DNA of 64,000 bases. Source: Malachius bipustulatus (lineage: Eukaryota > Arthropoda > Insecta > Coleoptera > Melyridae). The stretch is taken from positions 40,388,929 to 40,452,928 of the forward strand of contig OU342635.1 of the NCBI GenBank assembly GCA_910589415.1, given 5' to 3'. The notes under the pieces are model-generated. The model did no database searches. It was not told the DNA's origin and was given only the letters and a program-made list of their open reading frames with translations. The position numbers were made by a program, and so were the translations under genes. Below are positions 1-23,395 of this stretch, one piece after another (positions within the stretch are counted from its first letter, which is position 1; every line of letters begins with the position of its first letter).

Positions 1-133
1 GTGTATATTTTACTGCAACAAATGTCGCAATACAAATAACTGTATCCATCTGTCAATATTTTCCTTCTCTCTTTTACTGGACTTTCGTGTTGAGTCTTCT
101 TGTGCTTATTCAAAGTCCCCTTCTGTGTGAAAC
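1..133 (-). CDS. Gene A alternative 3' exon 4 (zinc finger, runs off window)
   Basis: The minus strand has a pyrimidine-rich acceptor ending in AG at 134-135, then an open frame to the window edge. Read in the phase left by gene A exon 2, it begins GFTQKGTLNKHKKTQH, which completes a C2H2 finger begun by CEFCGKG in exon 2. It then runs through a basic linker into YLYCDIC, the start of another finger. The layout matches the exon at 3067-3944, which begins GFTQKNGLKRHLENLH and continues into RYCDICSRTIYT, so these two exons look like duplicates. The exon is cut by the window start, so its length and stop codon are unknown. Use as an alternative terminal exon is inferred from splice phase and similarity. 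It could also belong to a neighbouring gene lying outside the window. Confidence 0.6.
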
Positions 134-712
134 CTAAAAGAGAAAGTAGAAAAAAATCGATGTAGATTACGCTTACGAATTGTACATTATTACATCAAAG
201 TCTCAGGTGATCGCGCCTATGAAACAGGTGAACAGAAACAACTATTTGTTATAGGAAAATGTATTTTATTACATATTTTTTTATTTCTAATAATTCAGAA
301 ATTACAGTATTCAAAACAAAGACATTTTCTTCTCCACTGTACTGCAACTCAAAACAAACAAAAAAACAAAAATCAACAAACAACAAACAAATTTAACGAA
401 TATACAGGGTCCCACAAAACTGGCACAAACTAAGATATGGTAGCAAAAACGTTCGTACGTCCAGCAGCAGTTTAACAAAGATTTGAATTGATATTTTATT
501 TTATTAGTCGTCCTCTAAGTTTTTTGCATTTTATATTCGTGATCGTGATTACTACTATTGTGTGTATATTGAATATTCTAGTCTTCCGTACTTAATCCTA
601 ATTGAATGACCTCGATTAGAAGCTCAAGAAAAATAAATTTTAATGTGTACCTGTACCTGTAACTACAGACTTGTAAAAAAGTAAAAACTTTATCTTATCT
701 TACTCAACTAAA
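134..712. other. Non-coding gap
   Basis: No coding region is supported here. Around 401-450 there is a stretch beginning TATACAGGGTCCCACAAAAC, which resembles the CAGGGT-type ends seen on inverted-repeat elements elsewhere in this window. No partner end was found. The stretch 670-712 leads into the kinesin-like frame but shows no convincing promoter. Confidence 0.4.
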
Positions 713-1824
713 ATGTCTGTATACAAGACGCAAAATGGCAGAACTCCAAGAATGGAAAGGACCATGTCAAACAACTCGGACTTGAATAAAGATCCAGTGC
801 GAGTTTACTGCAGATTAAGGACTGTAACCAGTGATAAAGATGTTAGCTGCATACGTTTACTCTCATCTACCACACTATCGATTTCAACGCCGATAGAATC
901 AAAAGGCGTCCACAAGGAAATCAGCTCAAGTTCCAGCACATTTTCACGAGCTGCGCTTCACAAAAGGAAGTCTTCAACCACGTAGCTCATCCCTTACTGG
1001 AGGATTTGTTGGACGGTAAGAACGGCCTACTCTTCACTTACGGTGTAACTGGATCTGGAAAAACGTACACTCTTACCGGAGAGCAAACCAATCCAGGAAT
1101 AATGCCCAACTGTATCGATGCACTTTTCAACACAATCGGCAACTTTCAAACCCCTAAATATGTAATAAAAGCAGACAAAATGAACGGATTCAAGGTCCAA
1201 TCAGAAAGCAAAGCAATGAGAGATCGTTTATCTGAAATTAAGTCATCAAATCGCACCCCGAAATCGTCACGTCGAACAGGAAACGGGGATCAAATCAGTT
1301 ACCTAAACGACGGAGTCACAGTTGCGAATTTCAACAAGTCCAATTTATATGCGATGTTTGTAGCTTACATCAAAATTTATAACAACATGGTATTCGATCT
1401 GTTGTAAGACTCTTCAACTAAAACGATGCGCAGATACACGCCGTACAAGAAGCCGGTTAAAAAGGTGGTGACGAACGGTACCGGTAATGGTACTCCTTCG
1501 GTCGTCACCAAGGTAAAGCCGACATTGTCGTTCACGTTGGGCCCGAAACTACCCTCTGCCGAATTAAATTCAAGTGACTTGGATCAACGTGAAGCATGCT
1601 TGGAGCGTTTCTTGAGAGTATTCGAAATGAGGAGAGAGAGGGGTAAAAGTATTGCGCAGCAAATCTCGAAAAAAGAGAAGCACTTCAGGGAAAGGTTACA
1701 ACAAATGCATCAAGAACAAGTACTCCACATTTTGAAAGACTTGAAGTACCAACTGAAACTGCAACGCCAACAGGGACACAACTTGGAACACAAAATTCTA
1801 ACTTTAGAGTCCGGTCTACAGTAA
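713..1824 (+). pseudogene. Processed kinesin-6 (MKLP1/Pavarotti-like) pseudogene
   Basis: Three open pieces in different frames read like one protein. The first (713-985) holds the start of a kinesin motor, with PVRVYCRLR as the first beta strand. The second (1006-1407) holds the P-loop YGVTGSGKTYT and the kinesin-6-like TGEQTNPGIMPNCIDALFNTI, then VAYIKIYNNMVFDLL. The third (1426-1824) is a basic segment (RRYTPYKKPVKK) and a long coiled coil rich in E, K, Q and R. A frameshift near 925-985 moves the frame before HIFTSC, and a stop follows VFDLL. The rest of the motor, including switch I and II, is missing between pieces two and three. There are no introns, so it is probably a retrocopy with later deletion. 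It lies on the opposite strand inside gene A. The Pavarotti/KIF23 assignment rests on the GIMPNCIDALFNTI region, from family knowledge. Confidence 0.75.
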
Positions 1825-3066
1825 TCTAATCTGGTCGAAAAGATATGGTAGACAATAATTATAATAAGAATCCAACAAAATAAAATCAAAACTTTTTCCG
1901 AAATAACTAAGCATCCTTTATATATTATTGCACCTGACCAATAGTAATTAGAACCTGCTTATAAGTTTACATTTTTTTTGTAATTAAAAACAAAAATTGT
2001 CATGAAAAATTAAGTTTCATGACCCTATATAAAGGAACCCAAAGAATTCTGCGTCATCTCAGTGACTAGTCACAAAATACACAGTTAAGTACATAATTTT
2101 GATTATTTTGCTCGAGAATGGGTTTAAGAACAAGTAGGGACTTCCCCAGTATCCTTCATGAAGCAGTAATCTTTCAAAAAATTTTTATACATGTACAAAA
2201 GCTTGTTTTGTGCAACAAATGACAACTGAAAAATAATCTTATCACTTGGGCTAGGCCAACACAACCAAAAGGCAAGAAAAGATTGCAAAGTTGGGATTTT
2301 TGAATTAATCACAGGTAAAAAAAAATAACAAATCAATTGAAGGATAACAATCAAAATGGAGGTATTAACATCCCTACAACCCCAAGTCATAACGAATAAT
2401 GACGCAACTTTGTATAGCGGTAAAAAACCCAGATATACATTTTTTGTGTATTAGCCATGTAATAGTATTCGGAGAGAGTTCTGGCTATCCCTTAAACTGT
2501 GGCGCTTTATCAAGGAAGGTCTCGATTAGGGAATGCAGGAAGTCCAGGCATGACCACGCGCTGCGGGAAGTACAGGCGAGCAGGACGATGAGTCCAGTAT
2601 CAAGTATATTTCCTAGTCTCAACAAGCAAAGATAAAATAAAAAGAAACAGCATTATGCACTGTAGTATCACACAAAGTTGATTGAAGTCAAAGTGAATAA
2701 GAGCAACAAAATCGTAACAGGTCACTAAACTTGTGATGGAAGAGTAGTGGAAGAAGATCTCAAGTTGCTCTTTGGGAAAATAAGACTGAGAATGAAGCGG
2801 AAGAAATCAAAATTAAACAATTAAATTAAGGTGAAGAAGAGCAACAAAACTATTGCAAATTACCTATCTGGAGTGAAGAAGTAGAAGCCCCCAAGTTGCT
2901 TTTTGTGAATGAAGATGAAACACCAGCAACAACACCAAGTCAAATGAAATCAAAGTGTTTATATAAAATTAATTATACTTCCACATCTTCCGCAAGAGAT
3001 AGTTTTTACGACACCCTGTATAATAATAATAAATAATAATAATAATAAAAGTTCATAAAATGTTTC
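1825..3066. other. Non-coding gap with imperfect duplication
   Basis: No gene is supported. At 2023-2031 there is a TATATAAAG box, and a TCAGTG initiator-like hexamer lies about 28 bases later, but only a very short frame follows it. Between about 2690 and 2915 an imperfect direct duplication of roughly 135 bp carries the shared parts GAGCAACAAAA and CAAGTTGCT. A TAATAA microsatellite lies near 3022-3049, close to the end of the following minus-strand exon. Confidence 0.4.
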
Positions 3067-3944
3067 TCATTCTTTTTCATCAATTATAATTGAATCCCGA
3101 CTCTCCTCCTCAACAGAAAACTCTTCCCCTTCACCGATAACCGCAATGTTGGCCCTCAAAATCTCCCGACTGACTTCGTCTTCGATCAGATGCAATATCG
3201 AATCGATCGATTTCGTATCCTCGATATCTTTATTCAAGTTAACGACATTCTTCAAGTCCAGCACAATCCCGTGGTTAGTCGCGCAATGCTTCTTCCTCAG
3301 GGAAGAATCCCGGAAACTCTCCTCGCACAAGGGACACTTGTACGGCATCTCTCCGGTGTGCACTCTTTTGTGCACTTTCAGATTAGTGTTCAGAGCGAAA
3401 CCCGTCCCGCACAACTCGCAACGGTACGGTTTCTCCCCCGTGTGAGTCCGGATGTGGCCCTTCAGCTGCGACGCCTGAACGAAATTCTTCGGGCAGTACT
3501 TGCACTGGTAAGGTCTCTCTCCCGTGTGGATGCGGTAGTGTCTCTGGAGGGTCATCCCGCCCGAGAAGCTTCTCGAGCAGATCCTGCATTTGAACGGCGT
3601 GTCTTTCTGGTGGCACATCAGGTGTTTCGACAGGTTGGATTGGTTACGTTGAAAAGTACCGCAAATATGACAGAGAAACAATCTGTCGTTCTCCGGGTCG
3701 GTGGAATGCTTTTCGGTTTTGTTGACTGGGTGTGGGTTCGGGGGACCATGGTGCTTGTTCGGCTTGTCTTCTCTATTGTGCCAGGTTCTGTGTTTGAGGA
3801 TACCCAGCCGGGTCGTGTATATGGTTCGGGAACAAATGTCACAGTATCTGTCATCGTACTTTCGGTCGCCATCTTTTGTTTTTTTCATCGCGTTTTCGTG
3901 TAAGTTTTCCAAGTGCCTCTTTAAGCCATTCTTTTGAGTGAAAC
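3067..3944 (-). CDS. Gene A alternative 3' exon 3 (six C2H2 fingers)
   Basis: The acceptor AG is at 3945-3946 after a T-rich tract, and the exon ends at a stop at 3067. Read in the phase left by gene A exon 2 it starts GFTQKNGLKRHLENLH, completing the finger opened by CEFCGKG. Six further fingers follow: CDIC..H-X3-H type, CHICGTFQRNQSNLSKH, CRICSRSFSGGMTLQRH, CKYCPKNFVQASQLKGH, CELCGTGFALNTNLKVH and CPLCEESFRDSSLRKKH. Most are joined by the TGEKPY-type linkers usual in DNA-binding arrays. An acidic tail of about 60 residues follows. Joined to exons 1 and 2 the total is 1,860 bases, an exact number of codons, giving a 619-residue protein. Being a nuclear DNA-binding regulator is inferred from the family. 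Confidence 0.85.
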
Positions 3945-4187
3945 CTACAAGATAAAGTAAAACACAAAATTGTTGTTAAGTGTTGGATGGTGTTGGTGTA
4001 ATAAAATATATCAAGTTATGTTTTTATCGTAATTTAACCAATTTAATATAAAATAAAACAGAAAAAATTACTGAACAATTTTATTATTTTACTTTTATAC
4101 AATAAATAAAAATATTATGTACAGTCAAAATTACAATAACAATACAGAACATTTTAAGAAACCTTTTAAGATCATCAGATCTTCTGA
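3945..4187. other. Intron spacer between alternative exons
   Basis: This short AT-rich spacer shows no gene. The acceptor for the upstream (lower-coordinate) exon lies at its left edge. Confidence 0.5.
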
Positions 4188-4788
4188 TTAATTCTGATGT
4201 GTTACAAGGTGACCCTCAAGAAAGAATTTAAGGGCGAAACATCTCTCACAAATGGTGCATAGATGTGGTTTCTCCCCCGTATGAACTCTGGTGTGATAGA
4301 CCAAATGAATTTTTTGGATGAAACGTTTGCTGCAAAACTCGCACTTGTACGGCCTTTCCCCGGTATGGATCTTCCGGTGGTTCCGCAACAAGCAAGCAAA
4401 AGAGAACCGCTTGAAGCATATATTGCACTCGTACGCCTTCTCCTGGCTCTGCATGCCCTTCTGGTGAATGTGAAGGCTATTTTTATATATGAATAAGTTA
4501 CTGCATTCCGGGCACTGGAATTTCTGGTCGCTGTTTTTGCAAGGATCCTTGTTTTGTGGATTCTTCGCCAGATTCTTTTCGGACCCGTGAGCTCCGGCCA
4601 AGTGCAGCTTGAAACCTCGCTCTTTTTTTGCTTAGCTGTCTCATTATTAAGTCTCTTACTCTTTCTCTGGACCACTTTATTTGTTACATCGATCCGATTT
4701 GCTTCGTGATTTTCAGTAACAGGAACGTCTTTTAGGGCACTACAATATAGTCTCTGATGATTATTAAAGGCATCCGGATGAGTGAAAC
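4188..4788 (-). pseudogene. Gene A alternative 3' exon 2 (C2H2 fingers, frameshifted)
   Basis: A good acceptor (CTGTTTCAG type) at 4789-4791 precedes a frame starting GFTHPDAFNNHQRLYC, which completes the gene A split finger as C2HC. About 40 linker residues follow in this frame. A run of seven T (seven A on the coding strand) at about 4622-4628 marks a one-base frame change. The second frame continues with four fingers: CPECSNLFIYKNSLHIH, CNICFKRFSFACLLRNH, CEFCSKRFIQKIHLVYH and CTICERCFALKFFLEGH, with TGERPY and TGEKPH linkers. Exons 1 and 2 plus this exon give 1,583 bases, one short of a whole number of codons. That agrees with a single missing A in the homopolymer. Either the exon is newly broken or the assembly has a homopolymer error; the well-kept fingers favour an error or a recent break. 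Confidence 0.7.
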
Positions 4789-5289
4789 CTGAAACAGAAA
4801 GTCTTAAAAATTTTGGGTTATAAAAACATAAGGCACTTTGCTTTTTATACTTAATATATTTTACATGAACTGCAAACAGTAACGCAACTGTCAATAATTA
4901 GACTATTGATTATGTCCTAATGCACAGAGCAATAAGGCACAAGGTTGAGAAAAAGATGAGTCATTAGACTAACCTTGTAGCTAGAATTCCATAGTGTTAC
5001 TTATGCTTTTGATTCCAAAGCTAGGACCACTTTAGCATTAGAAGAGCTATGGAAAACACATGTTTTTTCTTACTTTGAAAAAGTTTTTGAGTGAAGCTCT
5101 TTGAAAAAAATTTGTATGTGGCTTAAGAAGTGAAGCAATAGAGTGAAAGTTACTGAAAGAAGATATATTGCTAATAGTGGGTATGGAGAGTGCAGAGAAG
5201 TATAGCAAATTACTACTTATACTTATAGCCAAGAGGGTTGAATAAGGCATTCAGTTACAGAGATACGAAAAGAAAAATGAACAGCCTTT
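4789..5289. other. Non-coding spacer
   Basis: Intron or intergenic sequence with no recognisable gene or strong repeat structure. Confidence 0.4.
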
Positions 5290-5590
5290 AAAATAGAGAA
5301 GGTCAGCAAGTCGATCCTCACTGTATACAAAATATAAAAAGAGTCAAGTAGATAGTAGAGACCATGAGGAACTTAAAGATGAGATAGACTTCATGACATG
5401 GAAAATTGACCAGAGAAGTTGCGGACTTGTTATGTTATGAGTGTAAAAAAACTGGTCATACGTCAAAGAAATGCAAGTTCAAGGCAGTGAGAAGTTTAGA
5501 AGAGATCAAGGAGAAATTGACTTATTCGTTTTTTCTTCTTCTATTGCTTAGACACTTTCATAGAGCTTTATTCACCAACAACTATTAGAA
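5290..5590 (+). mobile_element. Copia-type gag remnant with CCHC zinc knuckle
   Basis: A short plus-strand frame (5406-5588) contains CYECKKTGHTSKKC, an exact CX2CX4HX4C zinc knuckle, followed by a basic tail. This is the nucleocapsid motif of Ty1/copia and related gag proteins. The preceding 100 bases are open in pieces and read like the end of a gag domain. No LTR, protease or reverse transcriptase is found nearby, so this is a fragment. It lies in the intron of gene A on the opposite strand. Confidence 0.6.
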
Positions 5591-6158
5591 TAAGGGTTAG
5601 AAATTTCTTTCAATATGTATATATTTTTTAAATTTTAATTTTCTTTTACCCTTATTTTATTTTTTGTTGTATTTCTTTTATTTTTTTTATTAGTTTATTC
5701 ACCAATTCCTTGTTGTTGTATTGCCTTAATTCATATTTTTATCTTTTATATACATTACTTAGTTTCTTATCTTTTTTTCTAAATCATGGATTTAATATTT
5801 AAAACTCAAAATTTCAAGAAAAAATCGAAAATAGATATATTTATAAAAAAAAAAACTTGAAAATGTTAAGTATTTGCATCATTGAATATAATAAAAATAT
5901 ATATTTTAATTGACACGTCGGACTTCCATTTAGAGGCCTGATAATATTAGAGGTCTAGATCTCAGCACTTGAACTGAAATCAACAAAGTATCACAAACTT
6001 GCATGCACATCAAAACTTTATAAAAAATCAACTTGAGACACAGCCCGATTAATAATATCACATTAAATTAAACAAATCTTCAAAACAATACAAAAAAAAA
6101 CACTTAACAACAACTAAAACCATTATTTCCATAAACATTTCAAAACTAAACAAATAAT
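5591..6158. other. AT-rich non-coding spacer
   Basis: Very AT-rich sequence (long T-rich runs at 5630-5780) with no gene supported. Confidence 0.4.
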
Positions 6159-7027
6159 TCAAGGTTTATAATCGATTGTTCCCTCGACATGTTTTTGCAG
6201 CACACTCTCCTCATTTATCAGATTGATCCGGTGTGCGATGTTGCAGTGCCTCTTCCTGATCTCCTTGGTGTAGAACAATCTGTCGCAAATCGAGCAGGCG
6301 AACGGCTTCTCGTCGGTGTGCAGCCTTGTGTGCACCGTCAAGTTCGACCTGCTTGAGAAGTCCTTTCTACAGTACTCGCACTTGTATGGCTTCTCGGCGG
6401 TGTGGACCAATCTGTGGCTCATGAGGGTGCTCCCATACTTGAAGCTCTCCTGGCACAAGTCGCATTGGTAAGGTCTGTCCGAGTGTACGAGCTCGTTCCG
6501 CTTGGGCCACAAGTCCGTTAAGCTCATCTGGTCTTCTTTCACTTCTTCCGGGTGAGAATGAAAGTAGTGACGTATCAGGTTTTTTCTGTTCGGGTAGATT
6601 TCGAGACATAAAGTGCATAAAGTGCACCGGTAATATCTATCCGAGTCCACGGACTGGTTCCGCTTGGGCCAAAAGTCCGTTAAGCTCATCTGGTCTTCTT
6701 TCACTTCGTCCGGATGAGAATAAAAGCAGTGGCATATCAGATTACTTCTGTTCAGGTATATTTCGTGACAAAATGTGCACATATAGGTGGTTACGATGTC
6801 CTCTTTGATGTTCTCTTCGTTCTCGTCAGTGACCATGAGCTCCTCTTCGATGGTTCCTCTTTCACGAACGTTTGTCCCTTTGCCGCATTTTTTAATGTGC
6901 TTTATGTAGATGCTTCTGATTCTGAAGTTTATTCCACAACGGTTGCATTTATTGAAAAGTTCGCTGACGGGTTTCTGATAGATTTGACGACATTTTTGAT
7001 GGGAGAGAATGTCCGGTCGAATCGAAC
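6159..7027 (-). CDS. Gene A alternative 3' exon 1 (C2H2 fingers)
   Basis: The acceptor AG is at 7028-7029 after TTGTTTATTTT. In the phase left by exon 2 the exon starts GSIRPDILSHQKC, a degenerate completion of the split finger. It continues with CNRCGINFRIRSIYIKH (C2HC), CTFCHEIYLNRSNLICH, CTLCLEIYPNRKNLIRH, CDLCQESFKYGSTLMSH, CEYCRKDFSSRSNLTVH and CSICDRLFYTKEIRKRH. The exon ends at a stop at 6159. With exons 1 and 2 the coding length is 1,851 bases, an exact number of codons (616 residues). Two blocks each reading VKEDQMSLTD.WPKRN are about 162 bases apart and nearly identical, a recent in-frame tandem duplication of one finger plus linker. The gap to exon 2 is 6 kb. Confidence 0.8.
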
Positions 7028-7529
7028 CTAAAATAAACAAGAAGAACCACTTGGTATTTGTGTATAAGGAAGTATTTAAGGCAGAAAAATATTTATTACT
7101 TATAAGGATACAAACATTCCTAACCCCCAACTAATCTCCTTGAATTATTATTACATTCTCCAGCTGAATTATAACAGAAATCTGTGCAGGGAGTTATCCC
7201 TATAAAAATTAATATTACCTATTGAAAAAGTATTTTTCTAATCAATTTTCATAAACACAACAATTCAGAACCACCACTTTCAGAAAGTGCTGTAACACAT
7301 TTTTCATTCCAAGTCAACTATTCACCCAAACTAGACCATAACGATCAACAATAAAACAATTTCTTTCAATAGCTCCCTCTTCTTTCCTTGACTTTGTAAT
7401 ATGCCACCCCCAGTGCAAGCATTTTTTTCTTCAAAATAATCCTCATCAGTGAAACTTGAGGAGAAGCCCGGCATTAATTAGGAAAAACCATTTGCAAGTG
7501 AGAATTTCAGAATCCTTTATTTCATCCGC
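7028..7529. other. Gene A intron, part 1
   Basis: No gene is seen. Near 7447-7460 the minus strand reads TTTCACTGATGAGGATTATT after CAAG, resembling the start of the alternative exons (GFT..). The phase does not fit and no finger follows, so at most it is a decayed exon. Confidence 0.35.
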
Positions 7530-8200
7530 CGCAACAATGGATTGGACTTTCACCTACAGTACCTACACGACGGTTAAAAGCTACGCGGGAATCTTGACCA
7601 AGAAGCACTGCAGGCGTGATACCTAAAAGGGTGGCGGGGGCAACGGTCAGTCGAGTTAAAGAGAGACGGATATAGATACAAAGGGTTATGTGAGTATAAA
7701 AACAACAGCACTGGCCCGCCTCGGGACACTACACTTCAACACTTGACTTTCAAGACTCCAACTCCTCTAACCCTTGGGTGGATTGAGAATACTCTCTGCT
7801 CAGCTCCTCTCTAAGCCGAAGCCAGTGCGATCGAGAATACTCTCTGCTGGTTTTACCTATCACTAAAAGTACCTACTACCTACCTATCTCGCCGAACCGC
7901 CTTGAAACCGCTATTCAGCGCCAGCCAGTCTACGAAGACCAGCCGCGGGTTCGAGCCCTGCCGCCTGCCGCCACCTACATTGCGCTATCCCGGAGGTGCT
8001 AGCTGCCGGAGTACTGAGAACCCCACCGGCACCCTAGGTCTGTCGTCATCGGAGACGTAGCCACCCTAATTGCGAAGCAAGGCCGCTTACTCTAAGTCCC
8101 GCGCTCGCCAGTCTACGAAGAGGAGGTTCGAGCCGAGCCACTGACGAGTGACGCTACCAACATCGCTTCATTCTGACACCGCCGGAGATGCTGCCAGGTT
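7530..8200 (+). other. GC-richer island with TATA box and internal repeats
   Basis: This stretch is clearly richer in G+C than its surroundings. It has a GAGTATAAAAACAAC box at about 7692-7706. About 35 bases later comes a segment with repeated ACACTTCAACACTTGAC-like sequence. Imperfect internal repeats occur, including GAGAATACTCTCTGCT twice (near 7785 and 7835) and CGCCAGTCTACGAAGA twice (near 7920 and 8105). There is no open frame. It could be an LTR or untranslated leader of a retroelement, or a promoter plus first exon. No matching second LTR or primer site was found, so the identity is open. Confidence 0.35.
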
Positions 8201-8342
8201 TTTATAAATCGTATCGCATTTATTTATTCGCTCTGATAAAATGCCCTTAGTTAGAAATGATAATTATTCCTTTTATTTCAGAAGTGTAAGTAAGTAAAAG
8301 TAAAGCTCGCAAAATTGTATTTATTTGTAACATATAATAACA

Positions 8343-8650
8343 GATCTTCCTAAGCGGTTCCGACGGCACAGTCATTCAAAATTCATCGACATTGTAGCCA
8401 AATGTCTCCCTCTCTCAGAATCAGAAAGAACCGGTCTGCTTGAAGTCATTTCGGTCATTCAAATAGCGTTAGGTTTAAGCGATCAGAAAATAATTGAGAT
8501 GTCTCAAAAATCAACAAAAGGCCAAAATAAACAGATAGGTAGAAACAGGCACAAAAGGCATGTCACCTCACTAACCAAGGGAAGTTTAACTTCATTTCTA
8601 GTTTGTTTGTTAAGTATCAATTTGTACCTCATTTCGGACTTTGACAACTA
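8343..8650 (+). other. Unassigned open frame of about 100 codons without ATG start
   Basis: After TAATAACAG, which would serve as a splice acceptor, the plus strand is open from about 8342 to a stop near 8648. It begins DLPKRFRRHSHSKFIDIVAK and contains LPLSESERTGLLEVISVIQI and LGLSDQKIIEMSQK. The composition (amphipathic, charged, few rare residues) looks more protein-like than chance. It lies about 150 bases downstream of the GC-richer island. I do not recognise the family. It may be a terminal exon of a host gene or the start of a decayed retroelement gag. Confidence 0.3.
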
Positions 8651-10081
8651 AAACCTCTCAGAAACTCAAAACAACAACATTCAAACAAATCGAGGTTTAC
8701 ATCAAAAGTTGGAATAGCATACTTATAACATTAATAAGAACAAATGAAGGGTTAAAACCAAAACAAACAAAAAACAAAACAAAACAGAGTTCCGTAATGT
8801 CAGACCATAGCCTTTTACGGTAAACTCAGATCCAAAGTGATCAAGGTATTTTCTTCCAGCAGTTGCGCGAATGCGAGAGTGCCTTCAGTGTTTTTATTAT
8901 TGTATAAGTCGCGTAAAACCGATGTTCACTTGAACAGAGTGGCCTGAGGGAGAAGGTCAGTGGGATGCTGCCTTCGTTGTAAAAACCACAAGCTTGAAAT
9001 TGAAGTAAAACTTGCCCAATCTGGCAACACCCAAACACCCGACGAAAGTAAAATCGCCAAACCATTCAATTCATTGTCAGGTCACTGGGAATTTTTACGA
9101 CAACCCTCACACACAAAAGCCGAGGCAAACAGAGAGTAAGATGATTGAAATGACTCAAGCAGGTCCTTTTCAAACCAGCTGCAGGAACAGCAGTGGAAGG
9201 TCTGAATAAATAAATGTAAAAGTAACTAATAGGAAATTAATTAAGGTAAATTAAGATTTCATTGTAAGGAATGAAATGATATTCAGTTTGAAACATATAT
9301 GAAATAGTGATATCATTTGATTCTTTAATTTTAAAGGAAGTAATTTTGATCACACAGGAATTTCTCGACTCCTGAGTTTTTGCATACCCTATCCGAGAAC
9401 CGAGGGTGGCTACAAGAAGAAACGACACAACGAGCGGGGTCCTGGCCGCATTTTCTAGACGATCATCGGGGGTAAGGGGGTGGTTGTTACAACTTGGACT
9501 CATACTTTTTTGAACAGACTTTTCTAACCTATTTCATAAGAAACCCTTTCATCGTGTTACAATTTCTAATTTAAATTTTCAACGATTAATACTGCAGTGT
9601 TAAGAAAAATTGAAAGAGATTTTAATTATTCATAGAGTAGAGAATGATTACATAAAGCCATCACAAGACGGCAAGAAATTTTAAATCAAGGACAAATAGG
9701 GATACTGATAAATTTTGTCAATTCGATGAGAGAGCTTGTGGGAGGAGCCAGTTACATGGATGGTAAGAACGTGAGCATCAACGAAGGATGCGCATAGACG
9801 GAGCCTGCTAAAGCGAGGAGGGGTAGGGGGATTGTAGCCAGTCTAAAATTTCACGCACATTCAAAACTAAAAAGCATAAAATAATTATTTAAATAAAAAC
9901 ATAACATATTTTAATATACCATGTTTATAATACTACAAAATTATATTTGCACAACACCCTTTTGTTTTCAAATATTTCTACAATACACAGTAAAAAAAAA
10001 ACTGTACAACTATTATAAGCCGTTCACTTATTATATTATATTGTTACAGTCTTACACTTTATTAATTCCAAATTAAAAATC
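8651..10081. other. Gene A intron, part 2
   Basis: No gene is supported. Plus-strand frames at 8660-9209 are broken and carry no recognisable domain. Positions 9230-9850 look like degraded repeat sequence. Confidence 0.35.
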
Positions 10082-10314
10082 TTACAGCTGATATTATAAA
10101 GACTCATTAAGTTAATGGGCAGATTTCTGTGGCCGTTTCTGAAGAAGGTATCAACTCTGTGTGGAAAATATTGCAATTTTGTCATTATTGGCATGGAAAG
10201 GGATTACAAAATTGTTAACAAAAGTCATTTGATGTCGATAATGGCTTAAAAAATGAGCACAGAAATCTGCCCGTTAACTTAATGAGCCTTTATACTACTA
10301 CCACCCGCTGTTAC
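10082..10314. mobile_element. MITE family M1, copy 1
   Basis: A 233-bp segment has inverted ends. The left end has TAAAGACTCATTAAGTTAAT then GGGCAGATTTCTGTG. The right end is its reverse complement with few changes. The outermost bases read CTTACAGC and GCTGTTAC. The middle is non-coding. A second copy in the opposite orientation lies at 17003-17233. Size, TIRs and lack of coding mark it as a non-autonomous DNA transposon. The superfamily cannot be assigned. Confidence 0.75.
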
Positions 10315-12537
10315 AAAATTCTTTAACACAACTACGTATAATGAGCTGTTCTCTTATTTACACACACACACATAGACACCACAACAACAATGCTCTTTCA
10401 CTTCACTCTGTTCTATGTCTTCCTTCAATCTTCTACTTCCAATTATTAACAACTGACTGCTAGAGTACCAACAGTTTTTATTATATACCCGTTGGCCGTG
10501 GAGTCTAGAAATGTCTAATAGTTTCATGCAATCTCGAACCTGTGTAGAACGCAGAACCATTCTGGTATTTAGTGGAAAGTGTGTTATTGTGGTCTGGCAA
10601 TATGTCATGCCTGTCATGTCACTAGAAATGTCGTGACGTTGCTGTTATCATAAGAATTATTGTAGTAGAAGGTAAACATAAACACGAAAACAAGTACGAA
10701 TAATTAAGAATCCAGAATAATTCGCGAGTGCTCCTTCATTATAATATGAAGTAGAAGGCTTTAAGATTATGTTTTTATGTTGACCAAATTGAAAAATCCC
10801 TAGATGCTTGCAAGCTTGTCTGATAATAATTATTAAAAAGTGTAATAGGTGACTGAAAATCGTTTTTCTAAACTTTTAATTTTTTTAGTTAGCTTTATAA
10901 TTAAAAGATTTCAATTTTTGCGCAAAAGTAAATTAAAAATCTGTCAGTAAATTACAGACTTTAAATTGCAATAAATTTTGAAAATATGGAGAATATATTT
11001 AACGATCTTTCATTTTTTATCGGTAATTAACTCTTCTAAGAGGGAGTAGAATTTACTTCCAGCAATATCAGACCCATATTTTGATAACAAGGGGCATTTT
11101 AAAATCAGTAATTATTAAGCAGATTGTTCATTTACGTTTGTGCAACCGGACCCATATGTTTCAAAATCCGAAGTCAAAAACACTTAAAGAAAAAGTAAGA
11201 AAAATCGCTCTGGCAACCATGTTTTGTTTATGGACATGCAACAAGAAATAGGCAAAAAATTGATCTAACCTAATTTCAATAAACGCATGACAGCGCTCGT
11301 ACGGGGTGATTTCTGTCTCCCTAATATGGCTACTTACTTTGCAAAAATAACAAGTGAACGCCTCAATAAGTAAAATTTTTACAAGACTAAAAAACTATAA
11401 ACCAAATTTCAATTCACAGATTGAATATTATGTTAACTAAATACTAAATACAACATAAATTAATATTAGTAGGCTTAAAAACCAAATCAACCTTCACCAA
11501 CTTAAAACAAGTAAAAAAATAAAATGAAGACTTTTAACAATTACATATTCTCATTGCTATATCAACCGATTGTTTCTTATTTCTCATTTCAAAGAAAAAT
11601 TACGTCATATCACATTACAAAAAATATGTTGAAATAAAAATAAAAAAATGCTTCACATTCCATTTCATTCAACGAAAGCTCACCATAATGTGACAAAATA
11701 AATTATTTTTTGTCTGATAAATACCCCAAAAGACATAAACAATTAATCGCTATAAAGTTGTATTCAAAAGTGCCTAAATGGGGCTCTGACTACTCTTATT
11801 ATATCTTCCTCTAGTCTTTTCTAGTCTTTAGATGTATTAAATTCCTGTTTGCAACCCAAAAATGTACCAAAAATTGTTAATAACATACATTACAATAGTA
11901 AAATTAATATTCTAATACATGATAAAATAATAAAATTATCTACTTACTTACCTTCCCCCTTCTCTACTTACTTGGCTATTTGTTGTAAATCTGATCACAA
12001 ATGACAAATAACTTTCACAATTCGCACTTACGCTAGTAAGCATTAATCGGAAGGTTCTTCTAAAAAAAAAAGCGACAACAAAATTTGTTTGCTAGTCTTG
12101 AAAAATCAGGAATGGTTATGAGACATCGAGTATCAAACTAATAATGAAAATCAGATTCATTACTCTTAAAATAATAAAAATGTGTTACATAACTTCCTGA
12201 TTATTTTAATAAGTACCGCAGTACCGGGCACCAGCACTGGTATAGGTACAGGTAACATGTAACAGGAACAGCTGAATCGATTACACATTTACTTAATCAC
12301 TAATAATAATAATAATTGTAGGCATGTGATGTGCGAATTTTGAATTTTTCAAACTTAGCAGAACTTCAGTTTCAATTTTCCAGTAAAACTGTCCCTTGAA
12401 ATAATTTATTAATTAATTAACTCAATTAATTCATTAATTGAGCATGATAATTCAACTTAACCTGACCTTTGATTGAATATTTTCCACTTACAAGTTTCAG
12501 TCGATCTAATTGATAATATTTTTTATTTATTTATTTC
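10315..12537. other. Gene A intron, part 3
   Basis: AT-rich sequence with no supported gene. It includes simple repeats (AATAAT near 12301-12318) and a palindromic TTAATTAATT stretch near 12407-12440. Confidence 0.4.
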
Positions 12538-12753
12538 TTAACAATTAACCAGTGAATCCTTTAAGGTTTCCATAAATTTTATACAATACCTTAGTACCAT
12601 AAAACTGAGGAATAGACAGTACAGACTGAGGCCCAGCCCATTACGAACTGCTGCCAAATTTTCTAATTTAACAAATGGACAATCTCCCGAACATATCCAA
12701 CAAATATTGAATTCTGCTGGCTGCTCATTTACTTCATTGTTTGTAATTGTCAA
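12538..12753 (-). pseudogene. Possible decayed ZAD-type exon
   Basis: A minus-strand frame of 71 codons contains FNICWICSGDCPFVKLENL followed by GLGLSLYCLF. The C-X2-C near the start and the hydrophobic stretch ending in a single Cys recall ZAD first exons, such as QLCRTC..LLELCLSLK in gene A. No second C-X2-C exon is seen nearby and no donor fits well. It may be a decayed duplicate of gene A exon 1, or chance. Confidence 0.2.
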
Positions 12754-13033
12754 CTGTCATTCCTTCAACAAATGCGAAATGTCTAAAACATCAAATCTTC
12801 TTAGAGCAATTGATCTTCGTCTTAGTACAAGACTAACAATGGAACTAATGGAAGGAATAACTATTTGAACTGTCACCTGTCACGTTACTTTAGATGGATT
12901 CGATTCGAACTCGAACTGTTCAAAATTTCAAAGCTTCGCACACCCCTACTCCTACTAATAACTTCAATAACTAAATCAGATCAGCTATTCCCGTCATCTC
13001 AAATCCGATCGTCTACTAAACTAAAAAACTGAC

Positions 13034-13766
13034 CTTTTCCGCAGAACTCGCATATGTGCGGCTTCTCCCCGGTGTGCGTCTTCATGTGACGCATCAAATT
13101 TCCGGCCAAGCTGAACATGCTCGAACACATGTTGCACTTGTAGGGCTTCTCCTTGGTGTGAGAGCGCAGGTGCGCGTTCAGCTTGAACCTGGACGTCACT
13201 ATCTTGGAACAGATCTCGCACATGTACGACGAGCTCTCCTTCGAATGGTTCGCCTCCCGCTTGTGGCGCTGCATCTCCCCCCTGCTCGCAAACAGGTCGT
13301 CACAGCCGTTGCAACTGAAATACTCCTTCACTTGCTTGACGTCGTTCAGCGTGGTCTCCTCCTTGACAGTGTCGTCGTTGTCTTCGTTCTCGTCGTTTGA
13401 ATCGTTCCTTATTATCAACTTTTCTACCACTTCATCGTCCGAGTTCTCGGACATTTCCGTCTCATTTTTGAAGATCTGCTTGCCGTAGTTGTGATCCCAT
13501 TCCTTAGTGTCCTTGTTGAAGATGACGGTTGCAGTTTCGTCCAATCTGGAATCGCGGCAGCCGCTGTCTCCCTCTTCTTCCTCTCGCGTGTTCAAGTCAT
13601 ACTTGTCGTCGTTTGGGCTGTCGTCCGAATCGGCTGCCGATGAGGTTAGGATCAGTTTCAGCGTCGACTCGTTCAGGTGACACTGCTTTCGGAAATAATA
13701 GAATCTTTGGATTTCGTTTACGCAGTTGGCACAGATGTTTTTTGGTAACGGGTCACTTGGATCCAC
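13034..13766 (-). CDS. Gene A exon 2 (second half of ZAD, acidic linker, 3.5 C2H2 fingers)
   Basis: The acceptor TTTCAG ends at 13767 and the donor AAAAG|GTCAG is at 13033. The exon begins VDPSDPLPKNICANCV, which supplies the second Cys pair of the ZAD. Then comes a highly acidic linker (DSDDSPNDDK, EEEEGDSG, SDDEVVEK). The fingers are CNGCDDLFASRGEMQRH, CEICSKIVTSRFKLNAH and CNMCSSMFSLAGNLMRH. After TGEKPHI a fourth finger opens with CEFCGKG and is cut by the donor in phase 1. A finger split exactly here means the 3' exon decides its recognition helix. Four downstream exons start in matching phase with GF or GS followed by the rest of a finger. ZAD domains dimerise and the fingers bind DNA, from family knowledge. 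Confidence 0.85.
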
Positions 13767-14229
13767 CTGAAACAAACAATTTTATAAATGGATCAATCTG
13801 ATATTTGATGATTTTTTGAAATGTTTCCTTGCACTTCTCGAATGGCCCATTAGTTTGAGAGTGACCTTAATGAGGACGGTGATATCATGGTCCGCTTTGA
13901 ATATACGATCATTTCCACAAAAAAATTAACTACAAATAATGAAACTACGAAGAAAATGAAATGTAACAATGTAAAAGTTGTAGTGAAATGTGAGTGGCCC
14001 CGCAAACAATGAACTAGGGTTTTTCTGGACTATGACAGAGAGAACAACTAATAACACGTTATTCCAACAATCTTGATCAGCTGTAGAATTTCCATATGAA
14101 CACATTCTAGATTCGAGCGGGCCAGCATCTAGATAAACAAGAAGAGCAGATTTTCAATGTTCCTAACCTCAAAAGCCAAATAAATCCAAAAGTGTTATAT
14201 AAATTTACGAGTCAGTTTTTTTAATTTAC
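13767..14229. other. Gene A intron 1
   Basis: A 463-bp intron bounded by GTAAAT donor and TTTCAG acceptor (minus strand). Nothing else is recognised in it. Confidence 0.6.
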
Positions 14230-14478
14230 CTTCAAAGACAGGCATAATTCCAGCAAGAAGGACAGCTTCTCTCCGCTGCTTATGGTCGACGTGTCTATTG
14301 GAATTAAGTCGAGCTTGCACAGGCAGGTTCTGCATAGTTGTTCGATTGATTTCGGGTTGATTTCAATGATTTGGGTATCTTCATTTTCCATTTCCTCATC
14401 TTCCATTTCATTTGCAAGGATTTGCCCCGAAGACTCTTCTTGGGGGTAAGAAGGAATCACTACCACTGTGCTGTTCAT
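14230..14478 (-). CDS. Gene A exon 1 (start and first half of ZAD)
   Basis: The frame opens with ATG at 14478 (MNSTVVVIPSYPQEES) and ends with the donor AAG|GTAAAT in phase 0. A short acidic N-terminal region is followed by QLCRTCLCKLDLIPID and FLLELCLSLK, the first Cys pair and helical part of a ZAD. The second pair (ICANC) is in exon 2, a normal split for ZAD genes. Two copies of a TIR element lie just upstream (14546-15283 and 15948-16666), so the promoter must lie within or near them unless there is a further 5' exon. The start codon is the first in-frame ATG upstream of the ZAD. Confidence 0.8.
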
Positions 14479-22405: not shown

Positions 22406-22462
22406 CTTTGTATTTTCTACATACATAACATCATTCAGCAAACACGGTAGTATCCCAGATAG
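22406..22462 (-). pseudogene. Gene C exon 1 remnant (end of ZAD first half)
   Basis: Minus-strand codons LSGILPCLLNDVMYVENTK lead to a donor AAAG|GTAAGA. They align with the end of gene B exon 1 (LLSDILETCTGIH) and join exon 2 in phase 0. The upstream part that should hold ATG and the first Cys pair is absent. At about 22465 the sequence turns into the satellite array. Beyond the array no matching Cys pair is seen. Confidence 0.55.
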
Positions 22463-22464
22463 CC

Positions 22465-23395
22465 CAAAATCTAAAATTACAACACCTGAATATATGGACT
22501 CGGAAATACAAAAATTCACGGTGGCCGTTCTAGGCCCGGACAGACGAGTTTTCACGAGAGCATGATAGGGTGGATCTTTGTCCTTGGTTTGGAAAAATAA
22601 AAAGCCCAGTAACGCATCAAGGGCAATTTTTTCGCCGAAAATCGAAAACTACAACACCTGAATATGCAGATTCGGAATTTCAAAAAATCACGGTGGCTGT
22701 TCTGGGCCCGGACAAGACGAGTTTTCACGAGGGAATGATAGGGTTGATCTTTGTCCTTGGTTTGGAAAAATAAGAAGCTCAGCAACGCATCAAGAGCAAC
22801 TTTTTCGCCGAAAATCGAAAACTACAACACCTGAATATGCGGACGCGGAATTTCAAAAAATCACGGTGGCCGTTCTAGGCCCGGACAAGACGAGTTTTCA
22901 CGAGGGAATGATAGGGTTGATCTTTGTCCTTGGTTTGGAAAAATAAGAAGCTCAGCAACGCATCAAGAGCAACTTTTTCGCCGAAAATCGAAAACTACAA
23001 CACCTGAATATGCGGATGCGGAATTTCAAAAAATCACGGTGGCCGTTCTGGGCCCGGACAAGACGAGTTTTCACGAGGGAATGATAGGGTTGATCTCTGT
23101 CCTTGGTTTGGAAAAATAAAAAGCCCAGCAACGCATCAAGAGCAACTTTTTCGCCGACAATCGAAAACTACAACACCTGAACATGCAGATTCGGAATATC
23201 AAAAATTAACGGTGGCCGTTCTGGGCCCGGACAAGACGAGTTTTCACGAGGGCATGATAGGGTGGATCTTTGTCCTTAGTGGTTTGAAAAAATAAAAAGT
23301 CCAGCAACGCATCAATTAAGGGCAGTTTTTACAGCCCAAAATCAAAAATTTCAACACCTGAATATGCGGACTCGGAATTTCAAAAATTCACGGTG
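22465..23395. repeat. Satellite array, about 173-bp unit, about 5.4 copies
   Basis: CAACACCTGAATATG recurs at 22481, 22652, 22825, 22998, 23171 and 23352, giving steps of 171, 173, 173, 173 and 181. Each unit also holds GGTGGCCGTTCT, CCCGGACAAGACGAG, TTTTCACGAGGG and TTTGTCCTTGG. The inner units are the most alike and the outer ones diverge, as expected for a homogenising tandem array. Unit length is close to one nucleosome repeat. Both ends of the array have CCCAAAATC. Confidence 0.9.

Follow-up and report, generated by a model that had tools for sequence, protein, structure and literature searches.

Organization of the locus

The sequence analyzed here (the window) is a stretch of 64,000 nucleotides from the beetle Malachius bipustulatus, taken from contig OU342635.1 (here C13) of a genome assembly totaling 544 Mb over 52 contigs. 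The window corresponds to C13:40388929-40452928, so that window position p equals C13 position 40388928+p. Near its left end, the minus strand carries a gene, hereafter the focal gene, that is predicted to encode a ZAD followed by C2H2 zinc fingers and to combine two shared 5' exons with one of several terminal finger exons, designated T1 to T5. The coding part of exon 1 (14478-14230) starts with an in-frame ATG, encodes the first half of the ZAD (CRTC), and is followed past 14230 by a donor, TTTGAAG/GTAAATT (the slash marks the splice site). Exon 2 (13766-13034) supplies the second ZAD half, followed by an acidic linker, three fingers, and a fourth of which only the Cys-x2-Cys half is present. 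Both exons join in frame, and exon 2 closes with ...CEFCGK plus one base (phase 1) directly at the 5' splice site GTCAGT (13033-13028; context AAG/GTCAGT), the first intron base being 13033. An initial annotation, made from the sequence alone, had placed the end of exon 2 inside a C2H2 finger at CEFCGKG in phase 1 with a donor at 13033, and our coordinates agree with it almost to the base.

The ZAD identity of the shared exons, also proposed there, was confirmed by Pfam on the T4 isoform, in which zf-AD (PF07776) scored 49.5 bits over residues 48-118, where the cut-off is 28. In the same isoform, tandem C-terminal fingers were recovered as zf-C2H2 matches, and fingers were listed for T1 to T5. 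Weak sequence matches were obtained to the solved ZAD chains 6fp5 (CG2712; E 0.0044), 7pok (LD15650p; E 0.0075), and 1pzw (grauzone; E 0.12). The ZAD is able to drive dimerization (PMC9810180). By its ZAD and tandem C2H2 fingers, the predicted product belongs to the ZAD-ZNF (zf-AD) proteins, and its ZAD may dimerize as well.

Downstream of the donor at 13033, five finger-encoding terminal exons were identified on the minus strand. T1 (7027-6159) is open over 289 codons, has its own stop, and would yield a product of 616 aa. T2 (4788-4188) has a fair acceptor and rebuilds the finger interrupted by the splice site, referred to here as the junction finger. T3 (3944-3067) is intact with 292 codons and a predicted product of 619 aa. 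T4 starts at 133 and extends to -714 (genome C13:40388214), so that only positions 1-133 lie within the window and the reading frame, 282 codons for a product of 609 aa, closes only with the flanking sequence to the left. In the 50 kb left of the window, a fifth exon of the same kind was found that starts 3.5 kb past the edge. This exon, T5 (-3455 to -4605; genome C13:40385473-40384323), is intact with 383 codons and would give a product of 710 aa. The acceptors of T1 to T4 end at 7028, 4789, 3945, and 134, each with AG/GTT in phase 1, and all five acceptors keep the AG and the phase with 10-14 pyrimidines among the 15 upstream positions. In the four intact exons (T1, T3, T4, and T5), 282-383 open codons occur together with a GC content at third codon positions of 0.60-0.64, compared to a GC content of 34-39% in the four leftmost 4-kb bins of the window. 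By open length and third-position GC versus local GC, these frames go beyond chance.

The reading frame of T2 breaks at seven consecutive A residues near 4629, and inspection of the translation by eye revealed a second finger without its Cys pair and no counterpart of the last finger typical for the family. T2 is probably a decaying exon, or else the A run contains an assembly error. Thus, the focal donor faces four intact terminal exons and one frameshifted one. The four acceptor positions and the product totals of 616 and 619 aa on joining T1 and T3 to exons 1 and 2 had been given correctly by the initial annotation. Its proposal of at least four alternative exons, each with its own stop, holds for T1, T3, and T4 (the latter closing outside the window) but not for T2, and its suggestion that a leftward extension might reveal more exons was borne out by T5. 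Within T1, we also observed an in-frame tandem duplication of 162 bp (window 6453-6776) that repeats one finger and its linker; the two 41-codon parts compared differ at 15 of 123 bases, with 0.106 nonsynonymous (dN) and 0.268 synonymous (dS) substitutions per site.

A single credible donor for the terminal exons

Since T2 to T5 encode only the second half of their first finger, they require a half-finger donor. A scan of 113.9 kb on both strands for Cys-x2-Cys-x2-G/G[T/C] returned 10 matches, of which six combine a GT with an open frame of 40 codons or more. Five of these six sites were located on the minus strand, while the sixth belongs to a neighboring gene, B, on the plus strand. Four of the minus-strand sites start with GTTT and lie inside longer finger-encoding frames; the remaining one is 13034. 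The scan indicates that 13034 is the one credible half-finger donor on the minus strand within the 113.9 kb.

A tblastn search with the two ZAD halves gave no minus-strand match better than E 10 in the interval from exon 2 to T5. ZAD exons belonging to individual terminal exons were not detected by this search, and whole-gene tandem duplication was rejected as the origin of T1 to T5, as no ZAD relics were found between the exons. The terminal exons T1 to T5 span 11.6 kb, and the distance from the focal donor to T5 is 16.5 kb. The stop of T2 (4188) and the first base of T3 (3944) are only 243 bases apart, a gap too small for a promoter and a ZAD exon. When the 120-base intron flanks ahead of the five acceptors were compared, none of the 10 pairs exceeded shuffles; T2-T3 and T3-T4 came nearest, being reached by 3 of 60 shuffles. 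The splice sites look as if they had been kept while their flanks drifted.

Descent and codon constraint of the terminal exons

Of 275 aligned residues, 145 are common to T3 and T4, at a dN of 0.37 and a dS of 1.16. A codon model of T3, T4, and T5 over 274 codons reached a log-likelihood of -2896.3 with free omega and -2935.9 with omega=1, a gain of 39.7, indicating that the neutral model is rejected for these three exons. The direction of the departure from neutrality was taken from the T3-T4 values of dN and dS. In a tree of 13 terminal-exon rows, T3, T4, and T5 grouped with a support of 86/84. In a later tree of 12 terminal exons, which omits T1 and T2, T3 and T4 grouped at 100/100, and T3, T4, and T5 were set apart from the other nine at 82/85.

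A profile of terminal exons scored T5 with 300 bits, T3 with 186, T4 with 179, the T2 piece with 107, and T1 with 93. In the tree, the path to the exons of other genes was 0.59 for T5, whereas the stem of T4 and T3 measured 1.46 plus 0.43-0.67. Based on its top profile score and its shorter path, T5, the exon farthest from the donor and the most family-like, is probably the nearest to the original one. T3 and T4 would then be derived copies, and T1 and T2 appear diverged and unplaced. An idea based on inspection by eye, that T2 is a copy of T3 or T4, was withdrawn, as the tree leaves T2 unplaced. A homolog search in a large protein database gave 674 candidates, none of them at E 0.001 or better.

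Paralogs sharing the in-finger intron

In the genome, 43 ZAD matches were obtained, of which 15 were read with their surroundings and 8 as 3.2-kb pieces, with 20 left unread. We defined an in-finger group by a ZAD-encoding exon 2 that ends with Cys-x2-Cys-x2 plus one base at a GT and whose phase is matched by a downstream terminal finger exon. In the stretches read around the 15 matches, this phase-1 intron was found after the second ZAD exon in the focal gene and in nine paralogs: B on the plus strand at 40369384, about 20 kb left of the window; K1 to K6 at C13:24.72-24.81 Mb; M at C13:23.07 Mb; and N at C1:47.03 Mb. Downstream of each of the nine, one intact terminal exon was found; that of K5 opens with another residue and was recovered by profile search. 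Only K4 has an additional terminal exon, located in the intron (C13:24776173-24775024), that is interrupted by an insertion whose ends are inverted (as judged by eye) and that lacks the last finger. This is a second case of terminal-exon duplication, decayed there. Taken together, nine donors elsewhere face nine intact terminal exons and one broken one, as compared to one donor with four intact and one broken in the focal gene.

As the in-finger intron is common to nine paralogs, it is not special to the focal gene, and the comparison indicates that the splice position is inherited rather than devised for alternative splicing. What is unusual in the set of ten genes seen is the multiplication of terminal exons, and not the splice position.

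Junction fingers of the predicted isoforms

T2, T3, T4, and T5 rebuild a junction finger of the form C-x2-C-x12-H-x4-H/C, each with a different helix. The residues at -1/2/3/6, the contact positions of the standard C2H2 code, are HDAN in T2, QNGR in T3, QGTK in T4, and QKNF in T5. The claim of the initial annotation that each isoform alters the helix of this finger stands for T2 to T5 but not for T1, in which the scan found no junction finger of standard spacing. The last two fingers have nearly identical contacts in B, N, and T5.

Proposed model and alternatives

We consider it likely that this locus is one ZAD gene whose terminal exon was multiplied inside the last intron, with several acceptors competing for the donor at 13033. 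A shared ZAD part with competing finger exons is the best available reading of the anatomy. According to this model, transcription would begin right of 14478 and proceed along the minus strand. Exons 1 and 2 would contribute the ZAD as dimerization module, the linker, three fingers, and half of the fourth, and the donor at 13033 would be joined in cis to one acceptor among T1, perhaps T2, T3, T4, and T5. Further fingers, the stop codon, and the 3' end would come from the terminal exon chosen, and T2 to T5 would also complete the half finger. The products are expected to share the dimerization surface and to differ in their DNA-binding fingers. The model would entail use of the individual junctions, regulated choice among them, dimerization of the isoforms, and binding of each to different DNA. 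That the gene acts as a splice-choice locus, with the ZAD part joining in-finger to any of at least four cassettes to give homo- and heterodimerizing factors with chimeric junction fingers, is a further step toward which we lean only slightly.

The proposal of the initial annotation, one ZAD gene with interchangeable finger exons, is in line with the exon anatomy and phase, the lack of any other credible donor and of ZAD matches between the exons, the grouping of T3 to T5, and their codon constraint; it falters at T2. Several observations weigh against our model. T2 is broken in the assembly, and T1 lacks the standard junction finger seen in the other four. No AATAAA or ATTAAA occurs within 1500 nt past the stop of T3, and the first one after T4 is at 644, although paralogs B and M likewise lack such a signal within 600 nt. 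T1 and T2 sat on long, unplaced branches in the 13-row tree, which is why both were left out of the later one, and the support of 82/85 that ties T5 to T3 and T4 is moderate. The 93 bits of T1 are below the scores of other finger genes, which reach 278 bits, so that a profile score alone does not prove descent for T1 or T2; the membership of T1 would draw on its position, its phase, and its end. Between T3 and T4, contact positions were changed in 13 of 24 cases and other core positions in 19 of 46 (p 0.33; six of the seven finger pairs, leaving aside three core positions of the junction finger encoded by exon 2); an excess of change at DNA-contact positions was not observed, nor any sign of selection aimed there. 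Pairing of the donor side (200 nt) with the acceptor side (100 nt) of the intron fell below the lowest of 15 shuffles for none of the five exons, and docking-selector pairing of this kind was rejected. Finally, the one-to-one control is limited, since T5 lies 16.5 kb from the focal donor whereas the sequence read downstream of paralog N covers only about 6.6 kb.

Alternatively, a single terminal exon, likeliest T5 or the nearest one, T1, might be used, the rest being decaying remnants, devoid of ZAD exons, of duplicated exons or whole genes. Such decay would account for the frameshift and truncation of T2, and the extra exon of K4, broken by its insertion and without its last finger, indicates that terminal-exon copies can die. 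However, T1, T3, T4, and T5 have remained open over their full lengths with acceptor and phase kept, T3 and T4 differ by a dS above 1 at a dN of 0.37, neutrality is rejected for T3 to T5, and the intervals contain no ZAD match; we regard this alternative as unlikely. It is quite improbable that the terminal exons are separate genes with short 5' exons that escaped recognition (encoding no ZAD, or with a donor that lacks Cys-x2-Cys-x2-G): the 11.6-kb spread, intervals of 2.9 kb (T3-T4) and 2.7 kb (T4-T5) that could house a small exon, and a T1 that might use another donor as it rebuilds no junction finger would fit, but T2 to T5 need a half-finger donor for which 13034 is the sole credible minus-strand candidate found, the T2-T3 gap is short, much of the T4-T5 interval is fold-back repeat, and a kinesin fragment on the opposite strand takes up some of the space between T3 and T4.

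Comparison with known systems

The initial annotation had likened the locus to lola and mod(mdg4), with a ZAD in place of the BTB domain. In Drosophila lola, common N-terminal exons encoding a BTB domain are spliced to one of numerous unique C-terminal exons, which mostly encode zinc fingers, and at least 20 isoforms arise by cis- and trans-splicing (PMC1947980). Similarly, the constant 5' exons of mod(mdg4) encode an interaction domain, while its 3' exons are alternative (PMC12692577, PMC4667647); it is described as exclusively trans-spliced, with over 30 isoforms (PMC12692577). One ZAD gene with competing terminal exons would follow the same plan, a shared 5' part with an interaction domain that faces several in-frame 3' exons with their own stops, four of the five being intact. 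In contrast to lola, the focal gene has a ZAD instead of a BTB domain and far fewer, predicted 3' exons. While mod(mdg4) combines BTB with FLYWCH and is trans-spliced from independent promoters, with some 3' exons on the opposite strand, the focal gene combines ZAD with C2H2 fingers and has all exons on one strand, so that cis-splicing would suffice. Neither BTB nor FLYWCH was among the nine Pfam families matched at E 0.001 or better in the T4 isoform. The comparison stands for the plan only; on our reading, the focal gene operates as lola does but is no relative of it.

A closer parallel in domain content is cucoid of culicine mosquitoes, a ZAD zinc-finger gene (PMC9810180) whose transcripts, as found by rapid amplification of cDNA ends, differ in the last exon (PMC6783274). 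Its last exon varies, as proposed here for the focal gene. However, the short isoforms lack finger 5 in Culex, and in Aedes they lack fingers 5 and 4 together with half of finger 3; the portions of these reports available to us describe no swap to another finger set. In D. melanogaster, 37 of 91 ZAD-ZNF genes sit in 13 clusters (PMC7655104). Such tandem clusters share local duplication and common introns with the focal gene, and the cluster at C13:24.7 Mb has the same in-finger intron. However, whole genes are duplicated in clusters, with one ZAD part per intact terminal exon, whereas in the focal gene the terminal exon alone appears to be duplicated. Among the literature matches listed, no title or abstract opening named a ZAD gene with exchangeable finger exons, in a search in which most subscription journals were not covered.

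If our model is correct, the lola/mod(mdg4) plan would have been arrived at independently in a ZAD gene, and ZAD-ZNF diversification would proceed also by duplication of terminal exons within a gene and not only by duplication of whole genes. It would also show how such a locus can begin: as the intron was already positioned inside a finger across the gene group, a duplicated terminal exon could be used at once. The paralogs with a single terminal exon in the same genome would provide ready-made controls.

Neighboring sequences

Between T3 and T4, the plus strand contains a fragment of a kinesin motor gene (window 847-1404), which scored 98.7 bits with the Pfam Kinesin profile and covers its positions 33-142 of 327. 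The motor is incomplete, the open frame that follows (1408-1821) had no Pfam match, and the fragment is probably a partial copy. Much of the T4-T5 interval is occupied by two fold-backs (positions 6759-8110 and 8128-8832 of region L009) with arms 90-98% complementary, which are probably mobile elements.

Upstream of the focal gene, a further ZAD-like gene occurs on the minus strand (window 21092-19551). It encodes a second ZAD half plus one finger (21026-20562) and four or more fingers (20096-19551), and its intron appears to be placed elsewhere. Beside this gene, another second ZAD half, also on the minus strand, was located at 22130-21972 (best E 1.8e-4), with no finger match adjoining, and a 173-bp tandem array occupies 22462-23395. 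About 9-11 kb left of the window, an open frame on the plus strand (C13:40378242-40379660) encodes a series of YKCxxCSYET-like fingers, which are of a different type.

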